This document shows positions 36,502 to 48,945 of a stretch of 64,000 bases of DNA, piece after piece. The position numbers and the translations under genes are program-made. Origin of the DNA: Desertimonas flava. Its GTDB lineage: Bacteria; Actinomycetota; Acidimicrobiia; Acidimicrobiales; Ilumatobacteraceae. The notes under the pieces are model-generated. The model had not been told where the DNA came from and ran no database searches. It worked only from the letters and a program-made list of their open reading frames with translations. The first letter of the stretch is position 1. Every line of letters starts with the position of its first letter. The stretch covers positions 186,001 to 250,000 of the forward strand of contig NZ_QKYK01000004.1 of NCBI RefSeq assembly GCF_003426815.1, in the 5' to 3' direction.

Positions 36502-37326
36502 TCACACGCCGCTGGTGGCGGCTCCCCAGACGGTGCCATAGTCCGTGGCGAGCAACCTTGCACCGTTGGGCCGCTCCAAGCGGTCGAACGTGAGCTCGCC
36601 CAGCGCCGCGACGACTTGGCGAGGGCTGACCGCGTTCACGCGCTCCTCCTCGCTCAGCACGTTCACGACACCGGGCGTCGCCACGATGGCGCCTGGGCAG
36701 AGAAGGCTCACGAGGACGCCTTCGGCGTCGAACTCCGGCGCGACGCCGACGACCCAGCGATCGAGTGCAGCCTTGCTCGCCCCGTAGGCGGCGAAACCAC
36801 GCTGGAACTCTGATGCCGCAAGCTTCACCAACGCTGCCGCCGACGTCAGGAACACGATCGTGGAACGGCCACCCGTCGGTCCACGTCCGGACCGGGCGAC
36901 AAGGGCGGAACGCGCCGCCAGCGTGCAGCCGACGGCGCCGAGGAAGTTCACCGCGTGCACCCTTGCGACATGGTCGAGACTGACTTCGTCGAGCCGGGCC
37001 CGAGGAAAGATGCCGGCCGAGTTGACCAACACGTCGAGGCCGCCCGACTCCGAGATCGGACCGAACGCCGCGGCGATCGACTGCTGGTCGGTCACGTCGA
37101 TGACCACTGTGTGGAGAAGGCCATCTGGCACCTGGCTCGCCAACGATCGCAGGGCTGCCTCATCGCGATCGAGGGCCCAGACCTCGTCCCCGGCGCGAAT
37201 GGCTGCCAGCGCTGCAGCCAGTCCGATTCCGCTCGCCGCTCCGGTGATGGCGATGCGACGACCACCCGGGCTGGACCAGGAGTCGGGGCGATCGGTCGTA
37301 TCGCGGGTCGCCGCGTTCTTGCTCAT
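36502..37326 (-). CDS. Short-chain dehydrogenase/reductase
   Basis: 274-residue classical SDR. The NAD(P)-binding motif is TGAASGIG, followed by LDVLVNSAGIFPRA; the catalytic Ser is in FLTSAAAL and YxxxK is YGASK. It probably oxidises or reduces a hydroxyl/keto intermediate. No Shine-Dalgarno is visible before ATG 37326; operator E is 15 bp upstream. Its stop abuts the tetR stop (TGATCA). Confidence 0.9.
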   Translation of the reverse strand: MSKNAATRDTTDRPDSWSSPGGRRIAITGAASGIGLAAALAAIRAGDEVWALDRDEAALRSLASQVPDGLLHTVVIDVTDQQSIAAAFGPISESGGLDVLVNSAGIFPRARLDEVSLDHVARVHAVNFLGAVGCTLAARSALVARSGRGPTGGRSTIVFLTSAAALVKLAASEFQRGFAAYGASKAALDRWVVGVAPEFDAEGVLVSLLCPGAIVATPGVVNVLSEEERVNAVSPRQVVAALGELTFDRLERPNGARLLATDYGTVWGAATSGV

Positions 37327-37340
37327 GGAGGGAACATTAA

Positions 37341-37355
37341 CGCCAGCGTTGATAT
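37341..37355. promoter_or_regulatory. Island operator, site E
   Basis: CGCCAGCGTTGATAT at 37341-37355, complement ATATCAACGCTGGCG. One mismatch in each half from the island consensus. It lies in the 38-bp gap between the 37365 gene and the SDR start, so the SDR probably has its own promoter. Confidence 0.55.
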
Positions 37356-37364
37356 CTCCCGTGG

Positions 37365-39539
37365 TCACTGGTGTGTGGTCACGCGATACACCGCTGCCGC
37401 CTCCGGGGCCAGATCGATGGTGGCGCCGGTGAAGCCGGGGGCATCGAGGCAGGGGGAGAGCCCCAACGACGCCGCGCCGGAGCCGTCGACCAGTTCGAGC
37501 ATCCTGGCGGAGGGGCCGAGGGCCAGCGACGCGACGGGGAGCCGTATCTCCAGCCGGCGACCGAGTCGGGAATCGCCGAACTCCCCGGTCTCGAGGTTGC
37601 CGATGAGGACATGATCGACGCCGCCGCTGCGCCAGGCATGCCACGCGACGGGTAGCGGACGAGCCGGGGCGACGGCGTGGATCACCCCCGCCTCGCGGGC
37701 GAGCTCGTGGAGCACGGTGGCTACTTGGAACGCCGGGAACGTCGAGCCGACCTGGTACTTGGGGACGAACTGGTTGAAAGGCTCGGACCAGTCGGTGGGC
37801 TGCCACCACAGGCGCCGCCCGCGTCGCGTCATCAGCGCCGTGTCGCGGGTGCGGTAGAGCACCGTCGCATCCTCGGCGACCTCCACGACGCAGTGCTCAG
37901 GGACGTAGGGACGATCGAACGTGGGCGTGTCTGGGTGGTCGCCGGTGCTGACCCAGAAGTCGGCACCGCGACGCTCGCCAGTCAGGGCGATGCCGAGCTC
38001 GTTGCGAACGGGCTCGGCGATGACGTCGGCCCGGCCGAAGACCGCCAAGCCGTCCGCCGACAACAGTGCGGACTCCCCATCCGGATCGGACGGCGTCTGG
38101 GCGATCAACACGCCGTCGGTGCCGGCACCGGCGGCGAGCCACTCGGGCCGGGTGGCCGACAGCACCGGGACCGCCCACTTCATGACGAGCGCGGCCTGAT
38201 CGTCGATCCACTCCCCCACGTTGTCCGCGGGGTTCGACGCGGCGAGCGCGGCCATCGACTGCCGGTCGTAGACGATCGCCGGCCCGTGCACGTGCTCGAG
38301 CGCCGCTGCGCTCGCCTCGGTGCGATCGAGCAACCCACCGACGAAGGCGATGTCGTCGCTCGACAGCAACTCCATGTGTCCGTTGTTGAGCCAGGACACG
38401 TAGGCGCCGTCACTCGGACGCGGGCCGGCCGGTGTGGCGGCGCTGGCATGGGCGAAGGCCCACGCTCCCCAGGTGAGCTTGCCGGGCACCTGGTGGATGG
38501 TGTCCCAGTGCTCCCAGCCGTCCCACGTCTCGACGAGGTGGTAAAGCGCGCACGGACGGGACCGCTGCTCGTTGGCCCGGGCGATCATCGCTCCCCGGGT
38601 CAGCAGGTTGGCCGTCTGGAACGTCCAGCCCTTCCACAGCTGATGCCACCAGTCCTGCCACGCACCGGCCCAGGTCTGCTCGATCCAGGCGTCGATGTGG
38701 CCGTCGGCGACGAGGGCCTCGAAGTCGACGCAGCCGACACGCCAGTCGGCCACCGGACTGATCGCGCTCGAGTAGCCGACGACGGTCCGGTCCGGCGCCG
38801 CCTCCTTGACGGCGCGGAAGAGGTGGCGCACGGCGTCCGAGAACGCCGCGACCACGGCCGGATCGTCGGGCGCCGTCGTGCCGTACGGGCCGTTGCGCGT
38901 GTAGATCATCGGCCCGCAGAAGCCGTCGCGCAGCAAGATGGCGTCGAACCCGGTCGCGGCGGCGAAGGCAGCCCATTGGGCACCGAAGAAGTCGCCGAAG
39001 CTGGTCCCTTCGGCGATGCCGTCGGGCGCCGTCGCGTACGGGTAGTCGTCGGCATGGAGCCGGTTCACGGGATGGAGATCGGGCATGCCGATGAACGAAC
39101 GAGCCGGCTCGTAGAGCTCGGGGTGCCGCTCGTACCAGTCGCTGTCGAAGTCGTAGATCTTCAGCTCCGGCGGCCACACGACGTGCGCCCACTCCACGAA
39201 CAGGATCCCGCAGCCGGCGCCGTCGAGGCCGTGGCGAGCGGTCGCCTCGCGATAGTCGGCGACGAACTCGGCGAGCCTGCGATACCCCACGGCGGCCCAG
39301 GGCGCGGTACGTCGGCTCCGGGTCGGGATCGGCTGGTCGAGATCCCCGGTCCACTCGGTGACGAGGTCGACGAGCCACCCGAGGTTGAAGAAGATGCCCC
39401 GCCGACCGCGTACCCCGGCGAGGAGCGGTCCGATCCGGTCGAACAAGGCGTCGAGTTGCGGGCCGAACGGGCCCGCCGGATCGAACCACGTGAGGTCCAT
39501 CTCCAACCACCGGTCGCCCGACCGTGCCGTACTCGTCAT
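37365..39539 (-). CDS. Uncharacterised large protein, putative TIM-barrel carbohydrate-active enzyme (paralogue 1)
   Basis: 724 residues, no signal peptide, cytoplasmic. I do not recognise the family. The first ~400 residues have many Trp/Asp motifs typical of glycosidase barrels: LLRDGFCGPMIYTRNGPYG (202-220), IEQTWAGAWQDWW (286-298), VETWDGWE (336-343), GAYVSWLNN (378-386). The C-terminal ~300 residues look beta-rich and end in VLIGNLETGEFGDSR. It shares all these motifs with the protein at 43418. The start ATG overlaps the FAD gene stop (ATGA). Context suggests breakdown of an imported sugar or glycoside. Confidence 0.8.
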   Translation of the reverse strand: MTSTARSGDRWLEMDLTWFDPAGPFGPQLDALFDRIGPLLAGVRGRRGIFFNLGWLVDLVTEWTGDLDQPIPTRSRRTAPWAAVGYRRLAEFVADYREATARHGLDGAGCGILFVEWAHVVWPPELKIYDFDSDWYERHPELYEPARSFIGMPDLHPVNRLHADDYPYATAPDGIAEGTSFGDFFGAQWAAFAAATGFDAILLRDGFCGPMIYTRNGPYGTTAPDDPAVVAAFSDAVRHLFRAVKEAAPDRTVVGYSSAISPVADWRVGCVDFEALVADGHIDAWIEQTWAGAWQDWWHQLWKGWTFQTANLLTRGAMIARANEQRSRPCALYHLVETWDGWEHWDTIHQVPGKLTWGAWAFAHASAATPAGPRPSDGAYVSWLNNGHMELLSSDDIAFVGGLLDRTEASAAALEHVHGPAIVYDRQSMAALAASNPADNVGEWIDDQAALVMKWAVPVLSATRPEWLAAGAGTDGVLIAQTPSDPDGESALLSADGLAVFGRADVIAEPVRNELGIALTGERRGADFWVSTGDHPDTPTFDRPYVPEHCVVEVAEDATVLYRTRDTALMTRRGRRLWWQPTDWSEPFNQFVPKYQVGSTFPAFQVATVLHELAREAGVIHAVAPARPLPVAWHAWRSGGVDHVLIGNLETGEFGDSRLGRRLEIRLPVASLALGPSARMLELVDGSGAASLGLSPCLDAPGFTGATIDLAPEAAAVYRVTTHQ

Positions 39540-40819
39540 CGCAACGTCCCGCTGACGAGCTCGGCGGCACGCTCGCCCGACCGGACCGCACCCTCGACAC
39601 AGGGCTGGACGAGCCAATCGCCGGCGAAGAACACCGGCGGTCGCTGATGGAAGGCGTCGAGGCGGGCGTGATAGCCCGGGCGGACGTCGGGCACGGCGTG
39701 CGGCCACCGGATCAGTTGCACGACGTCGGCTCGGTCGAGTGGGAACACGCGCGGGTCGATGCGCCGGGCCTCCGCCCATATGCGGTCCTGGACCTCCTCG
39801 GCTGGGGCGTCGAGCAGCGGCCCGCTGGACGCCGCGGGCGCGCAGGCGAGCGCCCAGGCCCACTCGTCGGGAACCTGGCCCCAGGCGCCGAACCGCCCGG
39901 CGCCGAGCTCGACGGTGGCGACCAGGTCGTTGGGAAAGACGTGGATCCCGCTGCGCGCCGGGCCCGCTCCGCGGCGGGCGGCGTACAGGCGGACGTGGGG
40001 CACGTAGCCGATCTCGGAGAGGATCGCCGGACGATCATCCGGCGTCAGGAGCTCGGCGGCGACCGGAGCCGGGATCGCCAGGACGACGGCGTCGTAGCGA
40101 TCGGCCGACCCGTCGATGTGGACGGCTGCGCCCCCGTCCCTCGTCGTCTCCACACCAGTGACGGTGACGCCGGTGCGGGCGCCGAGCAGGTCGGCCAGGG
40201 CCCGCCACGGAGCGTCCATGCCGCCGGCGACGTGGAAGAACGTGCCGACCGAGAGGACCCGGAGCCACGATCGCACGAGCGCCCCGGACATCTGCTCGAG
40301 CCGGGCGAAGAAGGGACCTTCGAAGTTGGGTCGCACGATGCGTTCCCGCGCTGCCGTACCGAAGCCGGCGAGGGCGTCGAGCGCAGTCTCGCCGTCATGG
40401 TCGAGGTCGATCGCCAGGTCGCCGCGCTGGGTGGCGAACAGCCTCGCCATGGCGACGAAGAAGCGCCCTTTGTCGAGTGGGCCGAGCAGCGACGAGCCGA
40501 GGATGCGCCCGACGGAGTTGGGGGTCGGCACGAGGCGCCCGTCGAGCAGGAGATCGCCGCCACCGCGCAGCGGCATGGGCGAGAGCCGGTGTCGCTGTCC
40601 GATCTCGTCGAGCAGTGCGAGGGTGCTGGGGTAGAAGCTCGCCAGCCACCCCGCACCGGTGTCCACCCAGTGGCCGTCGCCGTGGTGCTCGGTGTGCGTG
40701 CGTCCACCGGCCTCCGCCTCGCGTTCGAGCACGTCGACGTGGAAGCCGCGCTCGACGAGCCGGTAGGCGGCGGTCAGCCCGGCCGGCCCGGCGCCGACGA
40801 CGGCGACCCGGCGGGTCAC
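39536..40819 (-). CDS. FAD-dependent amine-oxidase-fold oxidoreductase
   Basis: 427 residues. Dinucleotide-binding motif VVGAGPAGLTAAYRL at 7-21, then EREAEAGGRTHTEH, and a C-terminal FAD motif FFAGDWLVQPCVEGAVRSGERAA. The layout is that of protoporphyrinogen oxidase/amine oxidase-like flavoproteins. Placed between deoR and a putative carbohydrate-active gene with four-base overlaps, so it may oxidise a sugar or amino-sugar derivative. Substrate unknown. Confidence 0.88.
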   Translation of the reverse strand: MTRRVAVVGAGPAGLTAAYRLVERGFHVDVLEREAEAGGRTHTEHHGDGHWVDTGAGWLASFYPSTLALLDEIGQRHRLSPMPLRGGGDLLLDGRLVPTPNSVGRILGSSLLGPLDKGRFFVAMARLFATQRGDLAIDLDHDGETALDALAGFGTAARERIVRPNFEGPFFARLEQMSGALVRSWLRVLSVGTFFHVAGGMDAPWRALADLLGARTGVTVTGVETTRDGGAAVHIDGSADRYDAVVLAIPAPVAAELLTPDDRPAILSEIGYVPHVRLYAARRGAGPARSGIHVFPNDLVATVELGAGRFGAWGQVPDEWAWALACAPAASSGPLLDAPAEEVQDRIWAEARRIDPRVFPLDRADVVQLIRWPHAVPDVRPGYHARLDAFHQRPPVFFAGDWLVQPCVEGAVRSGERAAELVSGTLR

Positions 40820-41649
40820 GCCGGCGCCTCGTCGGGCGGTGCGGGCACGACGGTCACGTCCACCCCGAGCTGGCGGATCGCATCGAGCTCGGCCTCGTCG
40901 GCACGATCATCGGTGATCAGTTCGTCGACCTCCTCGATGGCACACACCCGGGCGAGCTCGACGACGCCGACCTTGCGGCCCTCGGCCACCACGATGCGGG
41001 TACGGGCGGCCGCGACCATGCGCTGCTTGATCTCGGCCTCGGGCAGGTTGACGTTGGTGATGCCGCCACGATGGTCCACCCCGTTGCAGCCGATGAAGGC
41101 GATGGTCGCACTGATGCCGTCAAGCAGGGTGGCGCCCAGTGGGTTGACCAGCGAATGCTGCATCGGTCGCAACGTTCCGCCGGTGACGACCACGCTGACG
41201 CGCGGCGCGGCCGCCTCCAGTTCGAGGGCGATGGTCAGACCATTGGTGAAGACGGAGACGTCGGTGAGGTCGGCTCGGGCCACGAGGGCCCGGGCGAGCG
41301 CCGTCGTCGTCGTGCCGACGTCGACCAGCACGGCGTCGCCGCTGCGCACCCTCTCCGCAGCCGCGAGACCGAGGTGTCGCCGGGCGGCGACGAGGTGGTC
41401 CTGGGCGAGATCGAACGGCTGCTCCACGCTGTGCACGCGACGCGCGACGGCGCCACCGTGCACCCTGCGAACGTGTCCGCGTTCGGCGAGCGCCGTGAGG
41501 TCGGCCCGGACGGTCACCTCCGAGACGGCGAACTGCTCGGAGATGTCGCTGACACGGACGAAGTCGCGGTCGTTGACGTACGAACGGATGCGCTCCTGGC
41601 GAAGCTCCGCGGGCAGCGTGCTGCGGTGGTGGGGCCGTGCGCCGGTCAC
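40816..41649 (-). CDS. DeoR-family transcriptional regulator
   Basis: 277 residues. N-terminal DeoR HTH: RQERIRSYVNDRDFVRVSDISEQFAVSEVTVRADLTALAERGHVRRVHGGAV. The C-terminal DeoR sensor domain (GDAVLVDVGTTTTALARAL; VFTNGLTIALELEA; VVTGGTLRPMQHSLVNPLG) binds sugar phosphates in this family. GTG 41649 overlaps the ATPase stop. Embedded in the operon it probably regulates through the TTTCGTTT repeats at 46744-46780. Confidence 0.92.
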   Translation of the reverse strand: MTGARPHHRSTLPAELRQERIRSYVNDRDFVRVSDISEQFAVSEVTVRADLTALAERGHVRRVHGGAVARRVHSVEQPFDLAQDHLVAARRHLGLAAAERVRSGDAVLVDVGTTTTALARALVARADLTDVSVFTNGLTIALELEAAAPRVSVVVTGGTLRPMQHSLVNPLGATLLDGISATIAFIGCNGVDHRGGITNVNLPEAEIKQRMVAAARTRIVVAEGRKVGVVELARVCAIEEVDELITDDRADEAELDAIRQLGVDVTVVPAPPDEAPA

Positions 41650-42425
41650 TCGGAACCCTTCGAGCGTCCGACGCCGCTGATCAGGTGGAGAATCTCACTC
41701 CGATCGGTGCTGGCGGTCTCGCGGAGCGCGGTGAGCCGGCCCAGGCGCATGACGGCGATGCGGGTCGACAGCTGGAACACGTGGTCGAGGTTGTGGCTGA
41801 CGATCAGCTGGGTGAGGCCGCGCTCGGCCAAGCGCTCGACGAGGCTGATCACGCGCCCCTGTTCCTGCAGGCCGAGCGCGGCCATCGGCTCGTCCATCAC
41901 CAGGATGGTCGCTCCCTGGTGCACCGCCCGGGCGATGGCCACGCCCTGGCGCTGACCGCCCGACAGTGTGCGAACTTCGCGATCGACGTTGGGGACGCGC
42001 ACCTTCAGCTCGTCGAGGGCGGCGACCGCGCCGCGGCGCATCTCGGCGCGGCGCAGGATCCGCAGCGGGCCGACCCGGCGGATCAGCTCGCTGCCGAGGT
42101 AGAGGTTCTCGGCGACGTCGCGATGGTCGGCCAGGGCGAGATCCTGGTACACGGTGGCGATGCCGAGCTCGCGTGCCGCGGCCGGACGCGGGATGCGCAC
42201 TTCGTCGCCGTCGATCTCCAAGGTCCCGGAGTCGGGCCGGAGCGCGCCGCTCAGCATCTTGACGAGCGTCGACTTACCGGCGCCGTTGTCGCCGACGATG
42301 GCGGTGACCGTGCCCGACGGGAACTCGATCGTCACGTCGCTCACCGCGGCGATCCCGCCGTAGTGCTTGGTCAGGTTGCGGCCGGCGAAGCGCGGCACGC
42401 CGTCGGTGAAAGAGTGCGCACTCAC
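41646..42425 (-). CDS. Sugar ABC importer ATPase (single-domain, Rbs/Frc type)
   Basis: 259 residues with one nucleotide-binding domain, as in FrcA, not the double domain of RbsA. Walker A GDNGAGKST, signature LSGGQRQGVAIARA, Walker B ILVMDEPMAALG. Starts with GTG 42425, three bases after the permease stop. Confidence 0.92.
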   Translation of the reverse strand: MSAHSFTDGVPRFAGRNLTKHYGGIAAVSDVTIEFPSGTVTAIVGDNGAGKSTLVKMLSGALRPDSGTLEIDGDEVRIPRPAAARELGIATVYQDLALADHRDVAENLYLGSELIRRVGPLRILRRAEMRRGAVAALDELKVRVPNVDREVRTLSGGQRQGVAIARAVHQGATILVMDEPMAALGLQEQGRVISLVERLAERGLTQLIVSHNLDHVFQLSTRIAVMRLGRLTALRETASTDRSEILHLISGVGRSKGSE

Positions 42426-42428
42426 AGC

Positions 42429-43421
42429 TCAGTCCCGGAGCCGATCGAGTGACACGGCAGCCACGAGGACGCCGCCTTGCACGACGCGCTGCACGTCGCT
42501 CGGCACGCCGAGCAGGATCAGCCCGTTGGTGATGGCGGCGAGGAACACCGACGCGATCAGCGTGTTGATCATCCTGCCCCGTCCACCCTGGAGGCTGACG
42601 CCGCCGAGGATCACCGCCGTGAGCACGGGGAACAGCGAGTCGGCGCCCATCGTCGCCTGCGCCCGCCCGATGCGGGCCGCCTGCATCAGGCCGCCGAAGC
42701 CGGCGAGAGCACCGGCGACCACGAACACGACGAGGCGGATCCGCTGGACCGGGATGCCGGCACGATACGCAGCCTCGCGGTTGTCGCCCGTGGCATAGAG
42801 GTGGGCCCCGAACTGGGTCCGGGTGGTGACCGCCCAGGCGACGAGGTAGCACCCGAAGGCGATGACGACCGACACCGGGATACCGACCACCTTGTCCTGA
42901 GCGAGGAAGGAGATGCGCTGGAGGTTCTCGCCGAAGATGCTCGACCCGCCGGTGTAGAGCATGGCCAGTCCCTCGACGGCGCCGAGCGTGCCGAGCGTCG
43001 CCACGACGGACGGGATGCGTGCGTAGTTGACGAGCACGCCGTTGACGGTGCCCACGGCGGCGCCGATGCCGAGGGCGATGGCGATGCCGACGATCGGGTG
43101 ATGCCCACCGACGATCCATGCTGCGCCGATGCAGCCGGACAGGGCGAGGATGGCGCCGAACGAGATGTCGAGCTCGCCGAGGATCGCGACCATCGTCGTG
43201 CCGATGCCGATGATCGAGAACACGGCCGCCTGGCGCAACAGGATGAGGATGTTCGCCTGCGTGAAGAAGGTGTCGGTGGCGATCGTCAGGTACAGCGCCC
43301 ACAGGACGAAGATGACGATGAACCCTTCGCGGGCGAGGAACTCGACAATGCGGTCACGGACGCTGGCGACACCGTCGAGTGCGCCGGTCGGACCGACGGG
43401 TGGCAGCGCCGTGTCCGTCAC
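42429..43421 (-). CDS. Sugar ABC importer permease (RbsC-like)
   Basis: 330 residues with about ten membrane segments. ISFGAILALSGCIGAAWIV and NGVLVNYARIPSVVATLGTLGAVEGLAMLYTGG are characteristic of RbsC/BPD_transp_2 permeases; GDNREAAYRAGIPVQRIR follows. GTG 43421 overlaps the stop of the 43418 gene by four bases. Confidence 0.92.
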   Translation of the reverse strand: MTDTALPPVGPTGALDGVASVRDRIVEFLAREGFIVIFVLWALYLTIATDTFFTQANILILLRQAAVFSIIGIGTTMVAILGELDISFGAILALSGCIGAAWIVGGHHPIVGIAIALGIGAAVGTVNGVLVNYARIPSVVATLGTLGAVEGLAMLYTGGSSIFGENLQRISFLAQDKVVGIPVSVVIAFGCYLVAWAVTTRTQFGAHLYATGDNREAAYRAGIPVQRIRLVVFVVAGALAGFGGLMQAARIGRAQATMGADSLFPVLTAVILGGVSLQGGRGRMINTLIASVFLAAITNGLILLGVPSDVQRVVQGGVLVAAVSLDRLRD

Positions 43422-45514
43422 GACGCCACCACCTCGACCGTGCCGCCGGCCTCCGACACGCTGGCGACCACGCATCGCTCCGCCGGGACGTCGAAGCGAA
43501 GGGTGATCTCGTCGATGCGCACGGCTGCGGACCGTGGGGTCCGCGAGTCGCCGAGCCAGCCGGTCTCCAGGTTGCCGAGCAGCAGCGTGCGGCCGCCCGC
43601 CGATTCCCACCACTGCACGGTCAGCGGCTCGTGGATCGCCCGATCCTCCACGGCGACCGGCGCCGGTTGCCGCGACCACCACCGGGCGACGGCCCGTGCG
43701 GCGGCGACGCTCCCGTACTGCGAGCGAGGCAGCAGCGGGTTGGACGGATCGGCGAGCTCGGGCGGTTGCCACCACGCCGTCGCCGACGGCGTCGAGCCCT
43801 CGCCGTCGCGATCGCTGGCGACCAGTGTCGGCCACTCGTCGGCCTCCGCCAGGACCTCGACGTCATCGCCGGAGATCTCCACGCACGCATCTCCGGCCAG
43901 GTGGATCCATCCGTTCGACGCCTCGCCGTCGAACGCGATCCGCTCACGGTGGTAGCCGGACCGCCGGGTCTCGCCGCTGCACGTGGCGCCGGCCGCGGCG
44001 AGCAGCTCGGGCGACACGGCATCGGCCCGGCCGACCACGACGAGTGGCGCCGCGGGCCGGCCGGTGACGGTCGTGCCGAGCTGCACCACCGCCCCGCCGT
44101 CGGTCCGGACGCGATCGAGCCACTCGCCAGCCGTCGCCGCCAGCACGGGGAGCCCCCACTTCATGGCGAGGGCCACGGCGTCTTCGATGTGCTCACCGCT
44201 GTTGCGTCGCGGCGTCCACGCGTGCACCGCAGCCACCGCGTCGTGATCGAACACCAGCAGTGGTCCACCGACGGCGTGCATGCCGGCGGCATCGTCCTCC
44301 GCGGCGTCGAGCTCTCGCGACACGAACGAGACCGCGTCGGCGTCGAGCAGATGGTGCTGTCGGTCGTTCATCCACGACACATAGGTCCCGTCGGGAACCT
44401 CGAGCCCCTCGGGCGTCACGACCGCGGCGTGCGACCATGCCCACATCGCCCAGCGCAGCTTGCCCGGCACGTCGTGGACCGTGTCGAAGGGCTCCCAACC
44501 GTCCCATGTTTCGATCAGCTTGTAGTGCCGGACCGGCCGGCCGCTGCGGCGCACGGCGACGCCGTGGGAGAGCAGGTTGGTGTGCTGGTTCGTCCAGCCC
44601 TTCCACCAGTCGTCCCACCAGTCCTGCCAGGCACCGCCCCACGTCTGGTCGATGAGGACGTCGACACCGCCGCCCCGCAGGACCTCGGCGGTGTCGATGC
44701 ATCCCGAGCGCCACTCCGCCGTCGCGCCGATTCCCGACGTGTAGGCCATCACCATGGCCGTCGGCCGCGCCCGCTTGACGGCGGCGAAGAGATCGCGCAC
44801 GGCGATCGTCCACGACTCGTTCTCGGCGGGGTCCGTCGATGGCGTCACGCCGTAGGGGCCGCGCCGCGTGTAGAGCATCGGTCCCCAGAAGCCGTCGCGG
44901 AGATGGATGACGTCGAGGCCGCATGCCTCGGCGACCGCGGCCCACTGCGCCGCGAGGACGTCGGCGAAGCGGGTGCCCTCGTCGATCCCCTCCGGGAAGG
45001 CGGCGTAGCGGTGGCCGTCGGCGCGCAGCGGAACGCGCGGGTCCAGGTCCGGTCCCGGCAGCGGCGACAGGTCGAAGGGATAGAGCTCGGGATGTCGATC
45101 GCACCAGTCGCTCTCCAGGTCGTAGATGTCCGATCCGGTGATCACCCGGCCGACGCCGGCGACGAACAAGCCGACCCGCAGGCCGGGCACGCCCGCTCGC
45201 GTGGCCTCGGCACGGAGGTCCGCGGCCAGCCGTCCGAGGTCTGCGTAGGTCGCATCACGCCAGCGCACGTATCGGGCCGTGCGCATCGGGAGCCGCTGGT
45301 CGAGCTCACCGCCGAACTCGGTCACGACGTCGACGAGGAACGCCGGATTGAGGATCACGCCGCACTCGCCGCGCCGGCCTCGCCACAGGGGCGCGGTGCG
45401 TTCGACGAACTCCGCCACCGTGGCCTGTTGCGCCGACCCGTGCGGCTCGAACCAGTCCAGGTCGATCTCGACGTAGCGGTCGGGCCGCAGCCCGTCGGTC
45501 CTCGGTACCCGCAT
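43418..45514 (-). CDS. Uncharacterised large protein, putative TIM-barrel carbohydrate-active enzyme (paralogue 2)
   Basis: 698 residues, cytoplasmic, paralogue of the 37365 protein. Shared blocks: HLRDGFWGPMLYTRRGPYG (204-222), IDQTWGGAWQDWWDDWWKGW (288-307), ETWDGWEPFDTVHDVPGKL, YVSWMND, ALAMKWGLPVL and the C-terminal LLLGNLETGWLGDSR. It lies directly after the sugar-binding protein gene, so it is probably expressed with the transporter. The conserved Asp in RDGF/W and Glu/Asp before QTW are candidate catalytic residues. The Shine-Dalgarno is weak, so the exact start is less certain. Confidence 0.8.
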   Translation of the reverse strand: MRVPRTDGLRPDRYVEIDLDWFEPHGSAQQATVAEFVERTAPLWRGRRGECGVILNPAFLVDVVTEFGGELDQRLPMRTARYVRWRDATYADLGRLAADLRAEATRAGVPGLRVGLFVAGVGRVITGSDIYDLESDWCDRHPELYPFDLSPLPGPDLDPRVPLRADGHRYAAFPEGIDEGTRFADVLAAQWAAVAEACGLDVIHLRDGFWGPMLYTRRGPYGVTPSTDPAENESWTIAVRDLFAAVKRARPTAMVMAYTSGIGATAEWRSGCIDTAEVLRGGGVDVLIDQTWGGAWQDWWDDWWKGWTNQHTNLLSHGVAVRRSGRPVRHYKLIETWDGWEPFDTVHDVPGKLRWAMWAWSHAAVVTPEGLEVPDGTYVSWMNDRQHHLLDADAVSFVSRELDAAEDDAAGMHAVGGPLLVFDHDAVAAVHAWTPRRNSGEHIEDAVALAMKWGLPVLAATAGEWLDRVRTDGGAVVQLGTTVTGRPAAPLVVVGRADAVSPELLAAAGATCSGETRRSGYHRERIAFDGEASNGWIHLAGDACVEISGDDVEVLAEADEWPTLVASDRDGEGSTPSATAWWQPPELADPSNPLLPRSQYGSVAAARAVARWWSRQPAPVAVEDRAIHEPLTVQWWESAGGRTLLLGNLETGWLGDSRTPRSAAVRIDEITLRFDVPAERCVVASVSEAGGTVEVVAS

Positions 45515-45546
45515 CGCGGACGGTGTCGGCGCGCCCTCTCGGTCGC

Positions 45547-46689
45547 TCAGCCCTCGGTGCCCTCGGGAGCAGCGGTGCCGGCCTCGGTCCCAGCGGACGC
45601 CTCGGTTCCAGCTGACGCCTCAGTAGCACTGGCCGCCTCGGTGCCCGCTCCGTCGGGACCGCTGCCCGGGCCGGTGTAGACGAACACAGGGACCTCGATG
45701 ATGCCCGGAACCGTGCCGCCGCTGAGCCACGAGGCGAACGCGTCGAGGGCCAGCTGGCCGGTACCGACGGGGTTGGTGTTCACGCAACCCTTGTACATCG
45801 TGCCCTCGTCGATCAGCTCGACGGCCTGCGGTTCGCAGTCGATGCCGAAGATGAAGACGTCGTCGGCGGTCTTCCCGGCGTTCACCAGCGCCTGGTAGGC
45901 GCCGAGGTTGCCGGCGTCGTTGATGCCGAGCACGCCCGTGATGTCGGGGTTGGCCTGCAGCGCGGTCTCCATCGACGTCACGCCGTTCTCCGCCGTGCCG
46001 CCAAGGATCCTCGCCAGGAAGTTGCCGTTCGGGTACTCGGCGAGGAACGACGCCTCGATCATGTCGGCCCGGGCGACGAGCGACTCGATCGACGGGTAGT
46101 CGGTGATGACCATGTCGATCTCCTCGTCGCCGTAGACCTCGGCGGCGTACAGCCCGGCGGCCGTTCCGGCGGCCGTGGCGATGTCCTCCTCCTCGACGCT
46201 CACGGTCACGGCACCGACCTCGTTGAGGTCGCGGCCGGCGACCTGCACGACGAAGATGCCGGCGTCGGCCGCCTCCTGGGCCGCCGGGCCGATCGACTCA
46301 CCGCCGAGTCCGGTGACGATGATGGCGGCCGCTCCCTTGGACACGAAGCCTTCGATCCCCTGGAGCTGTTGGCTCGGGTCCTCACGCGAGTCGAAGATCT
46401 CGGCGTCGAAGCCGAGCTCCTCGGCCCGAGCCTGGATCGACTCGTTCAACGACTTGTGGTAGTCGGTGGCCATCGTGGCCGCGACGATGCCGACGAGCTG
46501 GCCCGGCGCGAGGTCGGCCAGCGCAGCGAGTTGATCGTCGCTGAGCTCGATGGCGTCAGCCCGCTCGTCGGCGGCGATCGTGCCGGTGTCCCCGCTGACG
46601 GGCGCGGAGCCGGCATCGGCACCGGATGCGATGCCGACAAGGCTGCTGGCGAACGCGGCGCCGACCGCGACAACAGAACGAAGTCTCAC
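45547..46689 (-). CDS. Sugar ABC importer substrate-binding protein (RbsB/XylF-like)
   Basis: 380 residues. Sec signal (LRSVVAVGAAFASSLVGIASGADA), then a type I periplasmic-binding fold: LVGIVAATMATDYHKSLNESIQARAEELGFDAEIFDS, GFVSKGAAAIIVTG, ITGVLGINDAGNLGAYQALVNAGK. The C-terminal ~35 residues are low-complexity (EASAGTEASAGTEAG). GTG 46689 is chosen over ATG 46737 because GGGGGGAACT stands just upstream and the signal peptide then begins correctly. Confidence 0.9.
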   Translation of the reverse strand: MRLRSVVAVGAAFASSLVGIASGADAGSAPVSGDTGTIAADERADAIELSDDQLAALADLAPGQLVGIVAATMATDYHKSLNESIQARAEELGFDAEIFDSREDPSQQLQGIEGFVSKGAAAIIVTGLGGESIGPAAQEAADAGIFVVQVAGRDLNEVGAVTVSVEEEDIATAAGTAAGLYAAEVYGDEEIDMVITDYPSIESLVARADMIEASFLAEYPNGNFLARILGGTAENGVTSMETALQANPDITGVLGINDAGNLGAYQALVNAGKTADDVFIFGIDCEPQAVELIDEGTMYKGCVNTNPVGTGQLALDAFASWLSGGTVPGIIEVPVFVYTGPGSGPDGAGTEAASATEASAGTEASAGTEAGTAAPEGTEG

Positions 46690-46743
46690 AGTTCCCCCCG
46701 GATGTGTTCCCCCAAGCGTGACCGTACGCACGGTCACACGCCC

Positions 46744-46780
46744 TTTCGTTTCGCATCTAAATGGTTTCGTTTGGTTTCGT
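46744..46780. promoter_or_regulatory. DeoR-type operator repeats upstream of the sugar operon
   Basis: TTTCGTTTCG (46744-46753) and GGTTTCGTTTGGTTTCGT (46763-46780) give several TTTCGTTT-like repeats, 55-91 bp upstream of the binding-protein start. Runs of TTTCNTTT are usual DeoR/AgaR operator elements. Regulation by the operon's own DeoR is inferred. Confidence 0.55.
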
Positions 46781-46903: not shown

Positions 46904-47722
46904 ATGACGACTGTGGTGACCAAGGTCCTGGGTGGAACCGCCAAGCCCGTTGGGATTCTGTACATCGAGCCCGACCTACAGGTCGAGGACGCCGGAACCG
47001 GGACGGGTCTCGACGGCGGGCTGAATGCGCCGTTCGTCGCCGACCTGCTCAGCGCGTGCCTCGCCCACGAACGCTGCGGCGTTCATCTGTATCGGTCCAT
47101 CGCCGGGCGTTCGACGATGCCCGACCTGCGCGAACGGTACGAGGCACTCCGCACCGAGACGGAGACGCACGTCGCTCTCCTCGAAGCGCTCATCTCCGAC
47201 ACCGGCGGCAACCCGATGTACGTCAGCCCGGCCGCTCGGGCGACGGAAGGAGCGGCTGCCAGGCTCGTCGAGACCACCTGGGTGCTCGACGGCTCACTCG
47301 ACACCGTGACCGCCGAGCTGGCGATGCTCGAAGCCGTGCTGCTGGCCGAGACGAAGAACCACGACAACTGGGAGCTGCTCGGCGAACTGGCCGACGCCAT
47401 GACTGCCGGCAGCTGGCGTGACTCGCTGCAGGCGGCCGTCGACCAGGTCCTGAATCAGGAGGACGATCCGTTGGGGTGGGCCCGCGAGACCCGACGACGG
47501 ATGCTGTACGTGGCCGCGACCGGAAGCGAGCCGCCGGCGGCAACGCCGGCCCACCGGGACGAGGCGGCCGACGACGCTGCGGTCACCCCCGACAGCGCCA
47601 CGGTCACCAAAGAGGAGCTCTACCACGAGGCCAAGGACCTCGACGTCCCTGGCCGGGGCGCGATGACCAAGGACGAACTGGCCGCAGCGGTCGCCGCGGC
47701 CAAGGAAGGAGACCAGTCGTGA
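46904..47722 (+). CDS. Ferritin-like protein with Rho-N/SAP-like C-terminal motif
   Basis: 272 residues. The helical core has acidic/His pairs spaced four apart (E85/H89 in ETETH; E149/H153 in ETKNH), plus E56 and E143, consistent with a ferritin-like di-iron or helical bundle. A Pro/Ala-rich linker leads to a C-terminal helix-extended-helix (TKEELYHEAKDLDVPGRGAMTKDELAAAVAAAK) like Rho-N/SAP motifs, suggesting nucleic-acid binding. AGGAGAG precedes ATG 46904. First gene of a three-gene operon. Confidence 0.68.
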   Translation: MTTVVTKVLGGTAKPVGILYIEPDLQVEDAGTGTGLDGGLNAPFVADLLSACLAHERCGVHLYRSIAGRSTMPDLRERYEALRTETETHVALLEALISDTGGNPMYVSPAARATEGAAARLVETTWVLDGSLDTVTAELAMLEAVLLAETKNHDNWELLGELADAMTAGSWRDSLQAAVDQVLNQEDDPLGWARETRRRMLYVAATGSEPPAATPAHRDEAADDAAVTPDSATVTKEELYHEAKDLDVPGRGAMTKDELAAAVAAAKEGDQS

Positions 47723-48945
47723 ATCCGCTGGAACAGCCGGGCATCCCGGTCGAGGAGCAGCTGCGCAGCTGGTCCGAATTGAACGTCGAACCGTTCGACA
47801 AGCTCGACGTCGACCCCTACACCCGCACCCGCGTCATCCTGATGAACGGGAGCGAAGTCGAGTCGATCCTCTTCTCGCACCAGTTCGCGCGGAACACCGA
47901 CAACCTCGAGATCCGCCAGGCTCTCGCGCTGTCACGCCGTGTCGAGGCGCAACAGCAGAAGGCCGTCAACGGCCTCAACCCCGGCGATCAGACGCCGCTG
48001 GAGACCACCATCGGCTACGAGCAGGTCGCCGTCGACCTGACCGCGTGGCTGGCCCGGCACGAGCCCGACCCCATGCTCAAGCAAGCGCTCGACTTCGCCC
48101 TGCTCGAGGACTTCGACCATCTCTACCGCTACGCCAACCTCTACGAGCTCATCGATGGCAAGGACGCCACTGCGCTCACCGACCACCTCACCGAGATCAC
48201 GCCAGGCCGCCCGACCGCTGTCGAACATCGTCATCCCCATGACGACGTCCGCGGCCACTTCGAGACCCACACCGTCGACCCCTTGTCCCGCCTGCACGTC
48301 ATGACGATCGTCGGCGCCGAGCAACAGACGATGAACTTCTACATGAACCACGGCACCGACTGGATCGAGCCGATCGCTCGCGGCCTGTACTCGGAGATCG
48401 CCCTCATCGAGGAACAGCACGTCACGCACTACGAATCGCTCCTCGATCCACTCGACTCGTGGCTCAAGCAGCTCGTGTTCCACGAGTACAACGAGGTGTA
48501 CCTCTACTGGTCGATGCTGCAGAACGAGAGCGACCGCCGCATCGCCGCACTCTGGGAGCTCCACCTCGACATGGAGCTCGGCCAGCTCGCTGCGGCGGGC
48601 GAGCTCCTCCGCAAGTTCGAGGGCATCGATCCCGCCGAACTGCTCCCGCCGGAGCTGCCCGACACGCCACTCACGTTCGAACCGAACAAGGACTACGTGC
48701 GAGCCGTCCTGGCCGAGCAGATCGATCTCCGGACCGACGGCCTCGACTACGTCGACGTCTCGGAACTGACGGCAGATCACCGGTCGATCGAGTACCGCGA
48801 ACGCGTCAACGCCGGCGGTGTCCCGAGCGAGATGGTCATCGACATGAACCGGGAGCACTCCGGTCGCGAGTACCGCGACGAGACCGAGGGCGACCATCCC
48901 GTCGCCGACCTCGTCGCCACCGACGCCGGGAGTGGTTCCTCATGA
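47719..48945 (+). CDS. Ferritin-like domain protein
   Basis: 408 residues, helical, with repeated Glu/His motifs (GYEQVAVDLTAWLARH; LLEDFDHLYRYANLYE; IEEQHVTHYESLLDP; HEYNEVYLYW; WELHLDMELGQL), suggesting two ferritin-like bundles. GTG 47719 overlaps the previous stop by four bases and has AAGGAG eight bases upstream. Function unknown; context suggests iron or oxygen/NO stress handling. Confidence 0.75.
   Translation: MNPLEQPGIPVEEQLRSWSELNVEPFDKLDVDPYTRTRVILMNGSEVESILFSHQFARNTDNLEIRQALALSRRVEAQQQKAVNGLNPGDQTPLETTIGYEQVAVDLTAWLARHEPDPMLKQALDFALLEDFDHLYRYANLYELIDGKDATALTDHLTEITPGRPTAVEHRHPHDDVRGHFETHTVDPLSRLHVMTIVGAEQQTMNFYMNHGTDWIEPIARGLYSEIALIEEQHVTHYESLLDPLDSWLKQLVFHEYNEVYLYWSMLQNESDRRIAALWELHLDMELGQLAAAGELLRKFEGIDPAELLPPELPDTPLTFEPNKDYVRAVLAEQIDLRTDGLDYVDVSELTADHRSIEYRERVNAGGVPSEMVIDMNREHSGREYRDETEGDHPVADLVATDAGSGSS

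Follow-up and report, generated by a model that had tools for sequence, protein, structure and literature searches.

In the 64,000-nucleotide stretch of Desertimonas flava DNA analysed here (contig NZ_QKYK01000004.1; the whole stretch is called the window, a 64-kb part of a 6.22-Mb genome), two large proteins, A (724 residues) and B (698 residues), are encoded on the minus strand beside a sugar importer of the Rbs type. We consider it likely that A and B belong to a new glycoside hydrolase family that acts in the cytoplasm on small glycosides after their import, and that has a domain layout like that of glycoside hydrolase family 42 (GH42) and an Asp/Glu pair. Hydrolysis inside the cell is what we infer from computed features, namely paralogy, gene order, the predicted fold (the whole of B, the barrel of A), conserved acids, the spread of the family and its neighbourhood in Chloroflexota.

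A and B are 41% identical over 685 aligned columns in BLASTP (E 1e-137) and have the blocks RDGF..GPM, QTW(A/G)GAWQDWW and ETWDGWE in common. Neither matches a Pfam family at E<=1 or an NCBIfam family at E<=0.1. A 15-row family profile found no PDB sequence at E<=10, the A2 profile had no PDB match, and the best phmmer match of B in the PDB was an RNA polymerase subunit (E 0.6). Five relatives from other loci (L003, L009, L010, L014, L015) were compared with Pfam, where three have no family and two have a chance match (E 0.26 and 2.1). A role in defence was rejected, since PADLOC returned no family at E<=0.01. The motif QTWGGAWQDWW is absent from the papers of the literature library searched, and other literature searches showed nothing on the family. 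The family of A and B is thus unnamed in Pfam, NCBIfam, PDB and PADLOC, in agreement with an initial annotation of the window, which had described two paralogues with these blocks and had placed them in no known family; profile searches with hidden Markov models, too, gave no match to a characterised one.

An AlphaFold model of full-length B, built on an alignment of 15 sequences, has a triosephosphate isomerase (TIM) barrel (predicted local distance difference test score, pLDDT, 85.6; predicted template modelling score, pTM, 0.91). A TIM barrel was also predicted for A, of which only the barrel region, residues 1-412, was modelled, with an alignment of 17 sequences (pLDDT 84.7, pTM 0.89). The two alignments hold mostly the same sequences, so that the models are not fully independent. 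The predicted layout of B is a TIM barrel, an alpha/beta middle domain and a beta-rich C-terminal part, as in GH42. When the whole of B was searched with Foldseek, the list was headed by GH42 beta-galactosidases (E 3.9e-16), followed by an exo-beta-glucosaminidase (1.6e-14) and a GH164 beta-mannosidase (2.7e-14), at 8-12% identity. A beta-1,2-glucosyltransferase was also among the leading matches, all of which have template modelling scores of about 0.5. In VIA-align, Cwp19 ranks first for B, where it matches only the barrel (Z 17.6, 308 residues), and the full chain aligns with 6y2k, 1kwg, 5e9a and 6t6g (Z 15.2-15.4, 506-533 residues, root-mean-square deviation (rmsd) 5.4-6.0). The barrel of A likewise matches Cwp19 (Z 21.9, rmsd 4.2, 305 aligned residues), followed by PgaB (Z 18.3), chitinases and beta-amylases. 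According to the excerpted text of PMC8233224, a GH5 enzyme forms a GH42-type trimer with insignificant sequence similarity to GH42; the layout thus recurs across families.

Strand 4 of the modelled barrel of B spans residues 202-206 and strand 7 residues 329-335. Conservation was counted over 17 sequences, that is, A and B of the window and the copies from 13 further loci, one of which (L009) gives three. In B numbering, Asp207 is present in 17/17 copies, as is the Arg before it, and position 335 is Glu in 15 and Gln in two. A and B themselves keep every residue that is invariant in the 17 copies, at 30 tabulated positions. The initial annotation had raised the possibility of a TIM barrel with paired acids, and the models bear this out by prediction for both A and B, conserved acids standing where strands 4 and 7 end; the lack of a barrel, which that annotation had named as a refutation, did not occur. 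By analogy of position, Asp207 may serve as the acid/base and Glu335 as the nucleophile or base. In the GH5 enzyme with the GH42-type layout, strands 4 and 7 hold the catalytic Glu pair (PMC8233224). The counterparts given for Cwp19 Asp196 are Asp466 in PgaB, Glu161 in a GH42 enzyme and Glu204 in a GH5 enzyme, and Gly328 of Cwp19 corresponds to the strand-7 Glu of these three (PMC5765458). In a profile alignment by hhalign, Arg206-Asp207 of B falls on the strand-4 Asp-Asp of the GHL10 family, at a very weak score (E 0.008, probability 5%). We take this Asp-Asp to contain Cwp19 Asp196, and the alignment may count as a hint only.

Two copies, the second of L009 and that of L014, form a pair in the tree (support 100/100) and carry Glu208, Gln335, Leu337 and Ala380, which suggests a remodelled pocket. 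A more far-reaching idea is that of an active site that is not known from other GH42-like enzymes. Two invariant elements, the Arg-Asp behind strand 4 and an Arg-His-x-Glu in the loop that follows strand 3, would suit an acidic or amino sugar, a sub-clade would have undergone a natural change of the catalytic set (Gln for the strand-7 Glu, with a new Glu beside the strand-4 Asp), and relatives of about 820 residues would form a further and larger branch with an Asn/Asp set; we regard this as unlikely.

Several observations weigh against hydrolysis by an Asp/Glu pair. A TIM barrel by itself proves no function, and the strand-7 Glu gives way to Gln in the two copies just described. Three members of the 820-residue branch keep His141, Glu143, Asp166 and Gln190, but, in an alignment stretch of low identity, have Asn in the column of Asp207 and Asp in that of Glu335. 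A sugar kinase is lacking in the window operon, whose Pfam matches include no kinase or phosphomutase family. Furthermore, there is no sequence link to a characterised hydrolase: hhalign against 20 GH42 sequences gave a probability of 0.3% (E 0.23; 3 columns aligned in global mode), although the same method picks up distant relatives of the family at 99.1%. The GH42 profile was made from L053 and 19 of L071-L090 (L087, which has in-frame stops, and the weak partial sequences L054-L060 were left out), with open reading frames (ORFs) taken from the first ATG, some of them without the first strand. Against GHL10, strand 4 was in register at the E of 0.008 given above, but an unrelated stretch scored E 0.009 and a reversed-profile control E 0.42; this profile, from the longest ORF of each of 17 of 25 loci (L091-L107), is noisy. 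Membership in GH42 was rejected on the hhalign result, on the lack of a Glyco_hydro_42 Pfam match for A or B at E<=1 and on a whole-genome search of the host that found no PF02449 at E<=0.001; GHL10 has no Pfam match with A or B at E<=1 either.

The 13 loci come from a single search, in which GTDB contigs were scanned for two peptide patterns, and are for this reason a lower bound. Seven are from Chloroflexota (L003-L008, L011), one is from Nitriliruptoraceae (L009), two are from a single genome, G067, of Microbacteriaceae (L013, L014), two are from Opitutaceae (L010, L012) and one is from a Verrucomicrobia metagenome-assembled genome (L015). The family is rare and patchy, and occurs in Chloroflexota, Actinomycetota and Verrucomicrobiota. 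The three copies of L009 (10001-16540) are tandem and diverged, the middle one being that with altered acids which groups with L014. In whole-genome searches, one of 61 relatives, the host's own genome, had matches; matches were also present in 2/396 genomes of the phylum set, 3/350 of Chloroflexota (one distant only), 4/394 of the class of G067 (three distant) and 55/387 of Verrucomicrobiota, with full-length members in two of the latter (G066, G068). The large searches scored two or three candidates per genome, and family copies may therefore have been missed. Plasmids gave no match to A in tblastn. The genomes with distant matches only (53/387 in Verrucomicrobiota, 1/350 in Chloroflexota, 3/394 in the class of G067) hold, as far as examined, the branch of about 820 residues (L029, L035, L036, L116-L131; L049-L051 are longer stretches). 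Profile comparison joined three of its members to the family at 99.1% probability, L029, L035 and L036 have no Pfam or NCBIfam match, and the branch has a stretch RHPEL...AD..YA..P.GIP in common with the family.

A maximum-likelihood tree places A, which is 59% identical to L003, inside a Chloroflexota clade (100/99) among Anaerolineae-type sequences. B, which is 50% identical to L011, is placed beside it with moderate support (90/93); L011, whose gene is split over two frames, is in the alignments without about its first 90 residues. A recent tandem duplication was rejected on these placements, and A and B appear to be old paralogues brought together. Given their separate places in the tree and the lack of a match in the other 60 related genomes, the window operon looks acquired.

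The genes around the other copies were compared over loci of 3 to 22 kb each (codon-usage scripts supplied the gene calls for L009, L011, L013, L014, L045, L047 and L049-L051; the match lists are incomplete where matches overlap, the best being kept). In five Chloroflexota loci (L003, L005, L006, L007, L008) the family gene forms one set with a SorC-type regulator, importer genes (a binding protein, a permease and an ATPase of about 500 residues), an SIS protein and a PfkB kinase; L004 ends at a contig end, with PfkB and the family gene visible. In L011 the order is regulator, binding protein, the split family gene and permease, followed by an aldehyde dehydrogenase, an iron-type alcohol dehydrogenase, microcompartment shell proteins and an AMP-ligase, with SIS and PfkB about 8.5 kb downstream. 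Importer genes thus adjoin the family gene in 6/7 Chloroflexota loci (binding protein and permease only in L011; L004 is the seventh), PfkB is found in 7/7 and SIS in 6/7. The SIS protein of L003 matches the isomerase domain of glucosamine-6-phosphate synthase (E 9.3e-19 for 2poc, 2.2e-17 for 1moq), and the alignment retains the Lys, Glu and His of an ALKxxE...HG stretch, which we take to be catalytic in GlmS. The kinase of L007 hits models of the PfkB type, first among them IolC, ribokinase and 2-keto-3-deoxygluconate kinase, all under the curated cut-offs. In the host genome SIS has no close relative (best 25% identity, E 4.7e-11).

In G065 the genes of the family operon and those of a bacterial microcompartment locus are intermingled (L011 6860-21053, L045 1-9535; shell families PF00936 and PF03319). 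The excerpted part of a microcompartment catalogue ties its SPU type to certain enzymes (PMC8217296), which are not among the G065 genes scanned, 34 kb being annotated in part. As a clue to the aglycone, the microcompartment of a single genome is too little.

Outside Chloroflexota, L014 has importer genes of the SBP_bac_1 and BPD_transp_1 kinds, the family gene, a 2-keto-3-deoxy-galactonokinase (DGOK), a 2-keto-3-deoxy-6-phosphogluconate (KDPG)-type aldolase and a short-chain dehydrogenase (SDR). About 14 kb around the three copies of L009 (with L047) hold importer genes of the same two kinds, two GH2 genes, an SMP-30 lactonase, a zinc-type alcohol dehydrogenase, a KDPG-type aldolase and an enolase-superfamily gene, the last four of these within about 12 kb; these genes do not form one operon with the family copies. 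L010, L012 and L015 show no sugar operon among the genes scanned. When the 13 other loci were searched by tblastn, neither the flavoprotein nor the DeoR regulator of the window had a match at E<=1e-8. The best match of the flavoprotein among 80 related genomes reaches 36% identity over 255 residues (E 3e-14), and those of higher identity cover short N-terminal stretches only; a fixed role of the flavoprotein was accordingly rejected. Since the downstream genes differ between clades, one enzyme family seems to be plugged into several routes. The initial annotation had suggested a new route for a glycoside or unusual sugar; the importer genes in Chloroflexota agree with this, but the flavoprotein and DeoR are not conserved, and several routes rather than one are indicated.

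If A and B are glycoside hydrolases, the Rbs-type importer would bring in a small glycoside which they would cleave in the cytoplasm, by means of the Asp after strand 4 and the Glu at the end of strand 7, and perhaps with different preferences for linkage or sugar. The freed sugar or aglycone might then be oxidised by the SDR and perhaps by the flavin adenine dinucleotide (FAD) protein, and induction would come about by relief of the DeoR-type repressor. A crude hydropathy check found no stretch like a signal peptide in the 13 copies with a placeable start (highest 12-residue mean 1.56); the three copies of L009 and that of L011 were not informative. A galactose-type or amino-galactose glycoside is a guess at the substrate that we put forward only tentatively, by analogy with the neighbouring genes: a galactose-type sugar because of DGOK in L014, an amino or keto phosphosugar because of SIS and PfkB in Chloroflexota. 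The two hints agree only in part. A literature search for combinations of SIS, PfkB and glycoside hydrolases found no paper, and the papers listed for a De Ley-Doudoroff link contained nothing of use.

The kinase and the phosphosugar-type SIS protein beside the family in Chloroflexota would also suit phosphorylases resembling the galacto-N-biose phosphorylases of family GH112, which would convert an imported disaccharide and phosphate into a sugar 1-phosphate and a free sugar for the PfkB kinase. A galacto-N-biose/lacto-N-biose phosphorylase, 3wfz, is indeed among the Foldseek matches of B (E 7.4e-10, 926 columns), but it ranks 25th, below GH42, GH164 and the exo-beta-glucosaminidase. The strand-7 acid present in most copies argues against phosphorolysis, as does the window operon, where neither a kinase nor a phosphomutase is among the Pfam matches, and we consider this reading quite unlikely. 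Galacto-N-biose phosphorylase is absent among the best 50 structural matches listed for each model (B and the A barrel), which is no evidence against a phosphorylase.

That the barrel is used for another sugar reaction, as in a lyase, transglycosylase or epimerase-type enzyme, is suggested by Cwp19, the best barrel match of both models, which the excerpts of PMC6016235 and PMC6811678 describe as a lytic transglycosylase, and by the strand-7 Glu not being universal in the family. However, the substrate of Cwp19 is peptidoglycan (excerpt of PMC6811678), whereas the family lacks an export signal in the copies checked and lies beside importers of small sugars in Chloroflexota; moreover, the strand-7 position, which is mostly Glu in the family, is Gly in Cwp19 and GHL10 (excerpt of PMC5765458). 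We find such a reaction highly improbable. Two differing old paralogues kept side by side, and the altered acid set in one of the three tandem copies of L009, could finally mean that A or B forms a heteromer with the other in which it does no catalysis or has a regulatory role. Yet both retain every invariant residue, and a single full family copy is present in 6/8 of the relatives' genomes searched; an idle partner is hardly to be expected. Glycoside hydrolysis by both A and B remains our preferred reading.

In the window, eight co-directional minus-strand genes run from 46737 to 36502 (ORF list and Pfam), in the order binding protein, B, permease, ATP-binding cassette (ABC) ATPase, DeoR, FAD oxidase-like protein, A and SDR (Table 1). 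Overlaps of 4 nucleotides (nt) occur from B to the permease, ATPase to DeoR, DeoR to the FAD protein and FAD protein to A, the gaps being 3 nt from permease to ATPase and 32 nt from binding protein to B; a fifth 4-nt overlap, of the SDR gene on the stop of A, results if the SDR starts at GTG 37368. The translational tie of A and B to an Rbs-type importer, DeoR and an FAD protein, as originally annotated, is visible in these spacings. The operon as then described matches in its neighbours, but it probably continues through the SDR, down to 36502, and its ATPase has a single ABC domain. For A, the coupled ATG at 39539 (stop at 37365) is the sensible start, not 39863, where the longest ORF begins.

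Table 1. Features of the operon in the window (positions count from the first letter of the window)
Feature	Position	Strand	Basis or remark
CGAAA x4, candidate operator for DeoR-type repressor	46744..46779	-	directly upstream of operon, 36 bases
Rbs-type sugar-binding protein of importer	45547..46737	-	PF13407 Peripla_BP_4 1.2e-33
Family protein B, 698 aa, predicted glycoside hydrolase	43418..45514	-	AF2 model; GH42/GH164 structural alignments
Codon Asp207 of B, directly after barrel strand 4, candidate acid/base	44894..44896	-	codon checked
Codon Glu335 of B, final residue of barrel strand 7, candidate nucleophile/base	44510..44512	-	codon checked
Rbs-type sugar ABC permease	42429..43421	-	PF02653 3.5e-39; GTG start at 43421
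Single-domain ABC ATPase, 259 aa	41646..42425	-	PF00005 8.7e-30
DeoR-family repressor	40816..41649	-	PF00455 (DeoRC) 2.1e-39, PF08220 (HTH) 2.2e-15
FAD-dependent amine-oxidase-fold protein	39536..40819	-	PF01593 Amino_oxidase 8.6e-35
Family protein A, 724 aa, predicted glycoside hydrolase	37365..39539	-	barrel modelled alone
Codon Asp205 of A (equivalent of B Asp207)	38925..38927	-	codon checked
Codon Glu337 of A (equivalent of B Glu335)	38529..38531	-	codon checked
Short-chain dehydrogenase, probable last operon gene	36502..37368	-	PF00106 2.7e-31; start GTG 37368 or ATG 37326

DeoR-type proteins favour repeats like those of the CGAAA cluster upstream of the binding protein gene. No other 45-base stretch of the window, on either strand, contains four copies of CGAAA, and such a cluster did not occur in 20 mononucleotide shuffles; it is a candidate operator for the DeoR-type repressor. 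A scan for consensus promoters found none, with 0.4 expected. The best PDB sequence match of the FAD protein is an amine-type oxidase (2.1e-9, over the N-terminal FAD-binding part), and the permease is 60% identical to that adjoining the family gene in L011. Single-domain ABC ATPases occur in the window and in G065 (L045 8708-9535), and the ATPases of five complete Anaerolineae-type operons have about 500 residues. The flanking genes look unrelated, with a TetR regulator and an AMP-binding ligase at one end and two genes without Pfam match, a hemerythrin and a MerR gene at the other. The two genes without a match (46904-48942; none at 1e-5) are divergent from the operon and lie upstream of the hemerythrin gene.

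New glycoside hydrolase families with a known fold turn up regularly. If our reading is true, A and B would stand for such a family, one whose acid set is unusual and which occurs in several phyla next to differing catabolic genes, and for a wider unnamed superfamily common in Verrucomicrobiota, and several 'hypothetical' operons would become testable sugar pathways.

Compared with known systems, the importer of the window has all components of the Rbs type (CUT2), namely Peripla_BP_4, BPD_transp_2 and ABC_tran, but CUT2 importers have an ATPase of about 500 residues with a double ABC domain, whereas that of the window has one ABC_tran domain in 259 residues. Among enzymes, Cwp19/GHL10 (PF02638) offers the nearest barrel for both models, yet GHL10 has Gly at the end of strand 7 (excerpt of PMC5765458) where all 17 copies have Glu or Gln. 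The solved region of Cwp19 is a barrel only, whereas the model of B has three domains. PgaB, which acts on an extracellular polymer, likewise has the barrel alone in common, through its C-terminal domain. Its Asp466 and Glu607 stand at matching positions (excerpt of PMC5765458). The GH164 beta-mannosidase Bs164 (6t6g and others) has the same layout as the model of B (Z 15.3, 528 residues, rmsd 5.5), at only 8-9% identity in the structural alignment. GH42 enzymes are homotrimers with beta-galactosidase or alpha-L-arabinopyranosidase activity. The three-domain layout of GH42 (PF02449; 5e9a, 6y2k, 1kwg), which consists of a TIM barrel, a trimerisation domain and a beta domain, is predicted, for B only, over 506-533 of its 698 residues, and the Glu with which strand 7 ends in GH42 is present in 15 of the 17 copies, A and B among them. 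As a rule, GH42 enzymes carry Asn-Glu where strand 4 ends. The excerpt of PMC5765458 gives Asn160-Glu161 for a GH42 enzyme, where the family described here has Arg-Asp throughout. By fold and layout, the family is of a known kind, that of the GH42-like glycosidases, and it is set apart by its sequence and by its strand-4 residues.

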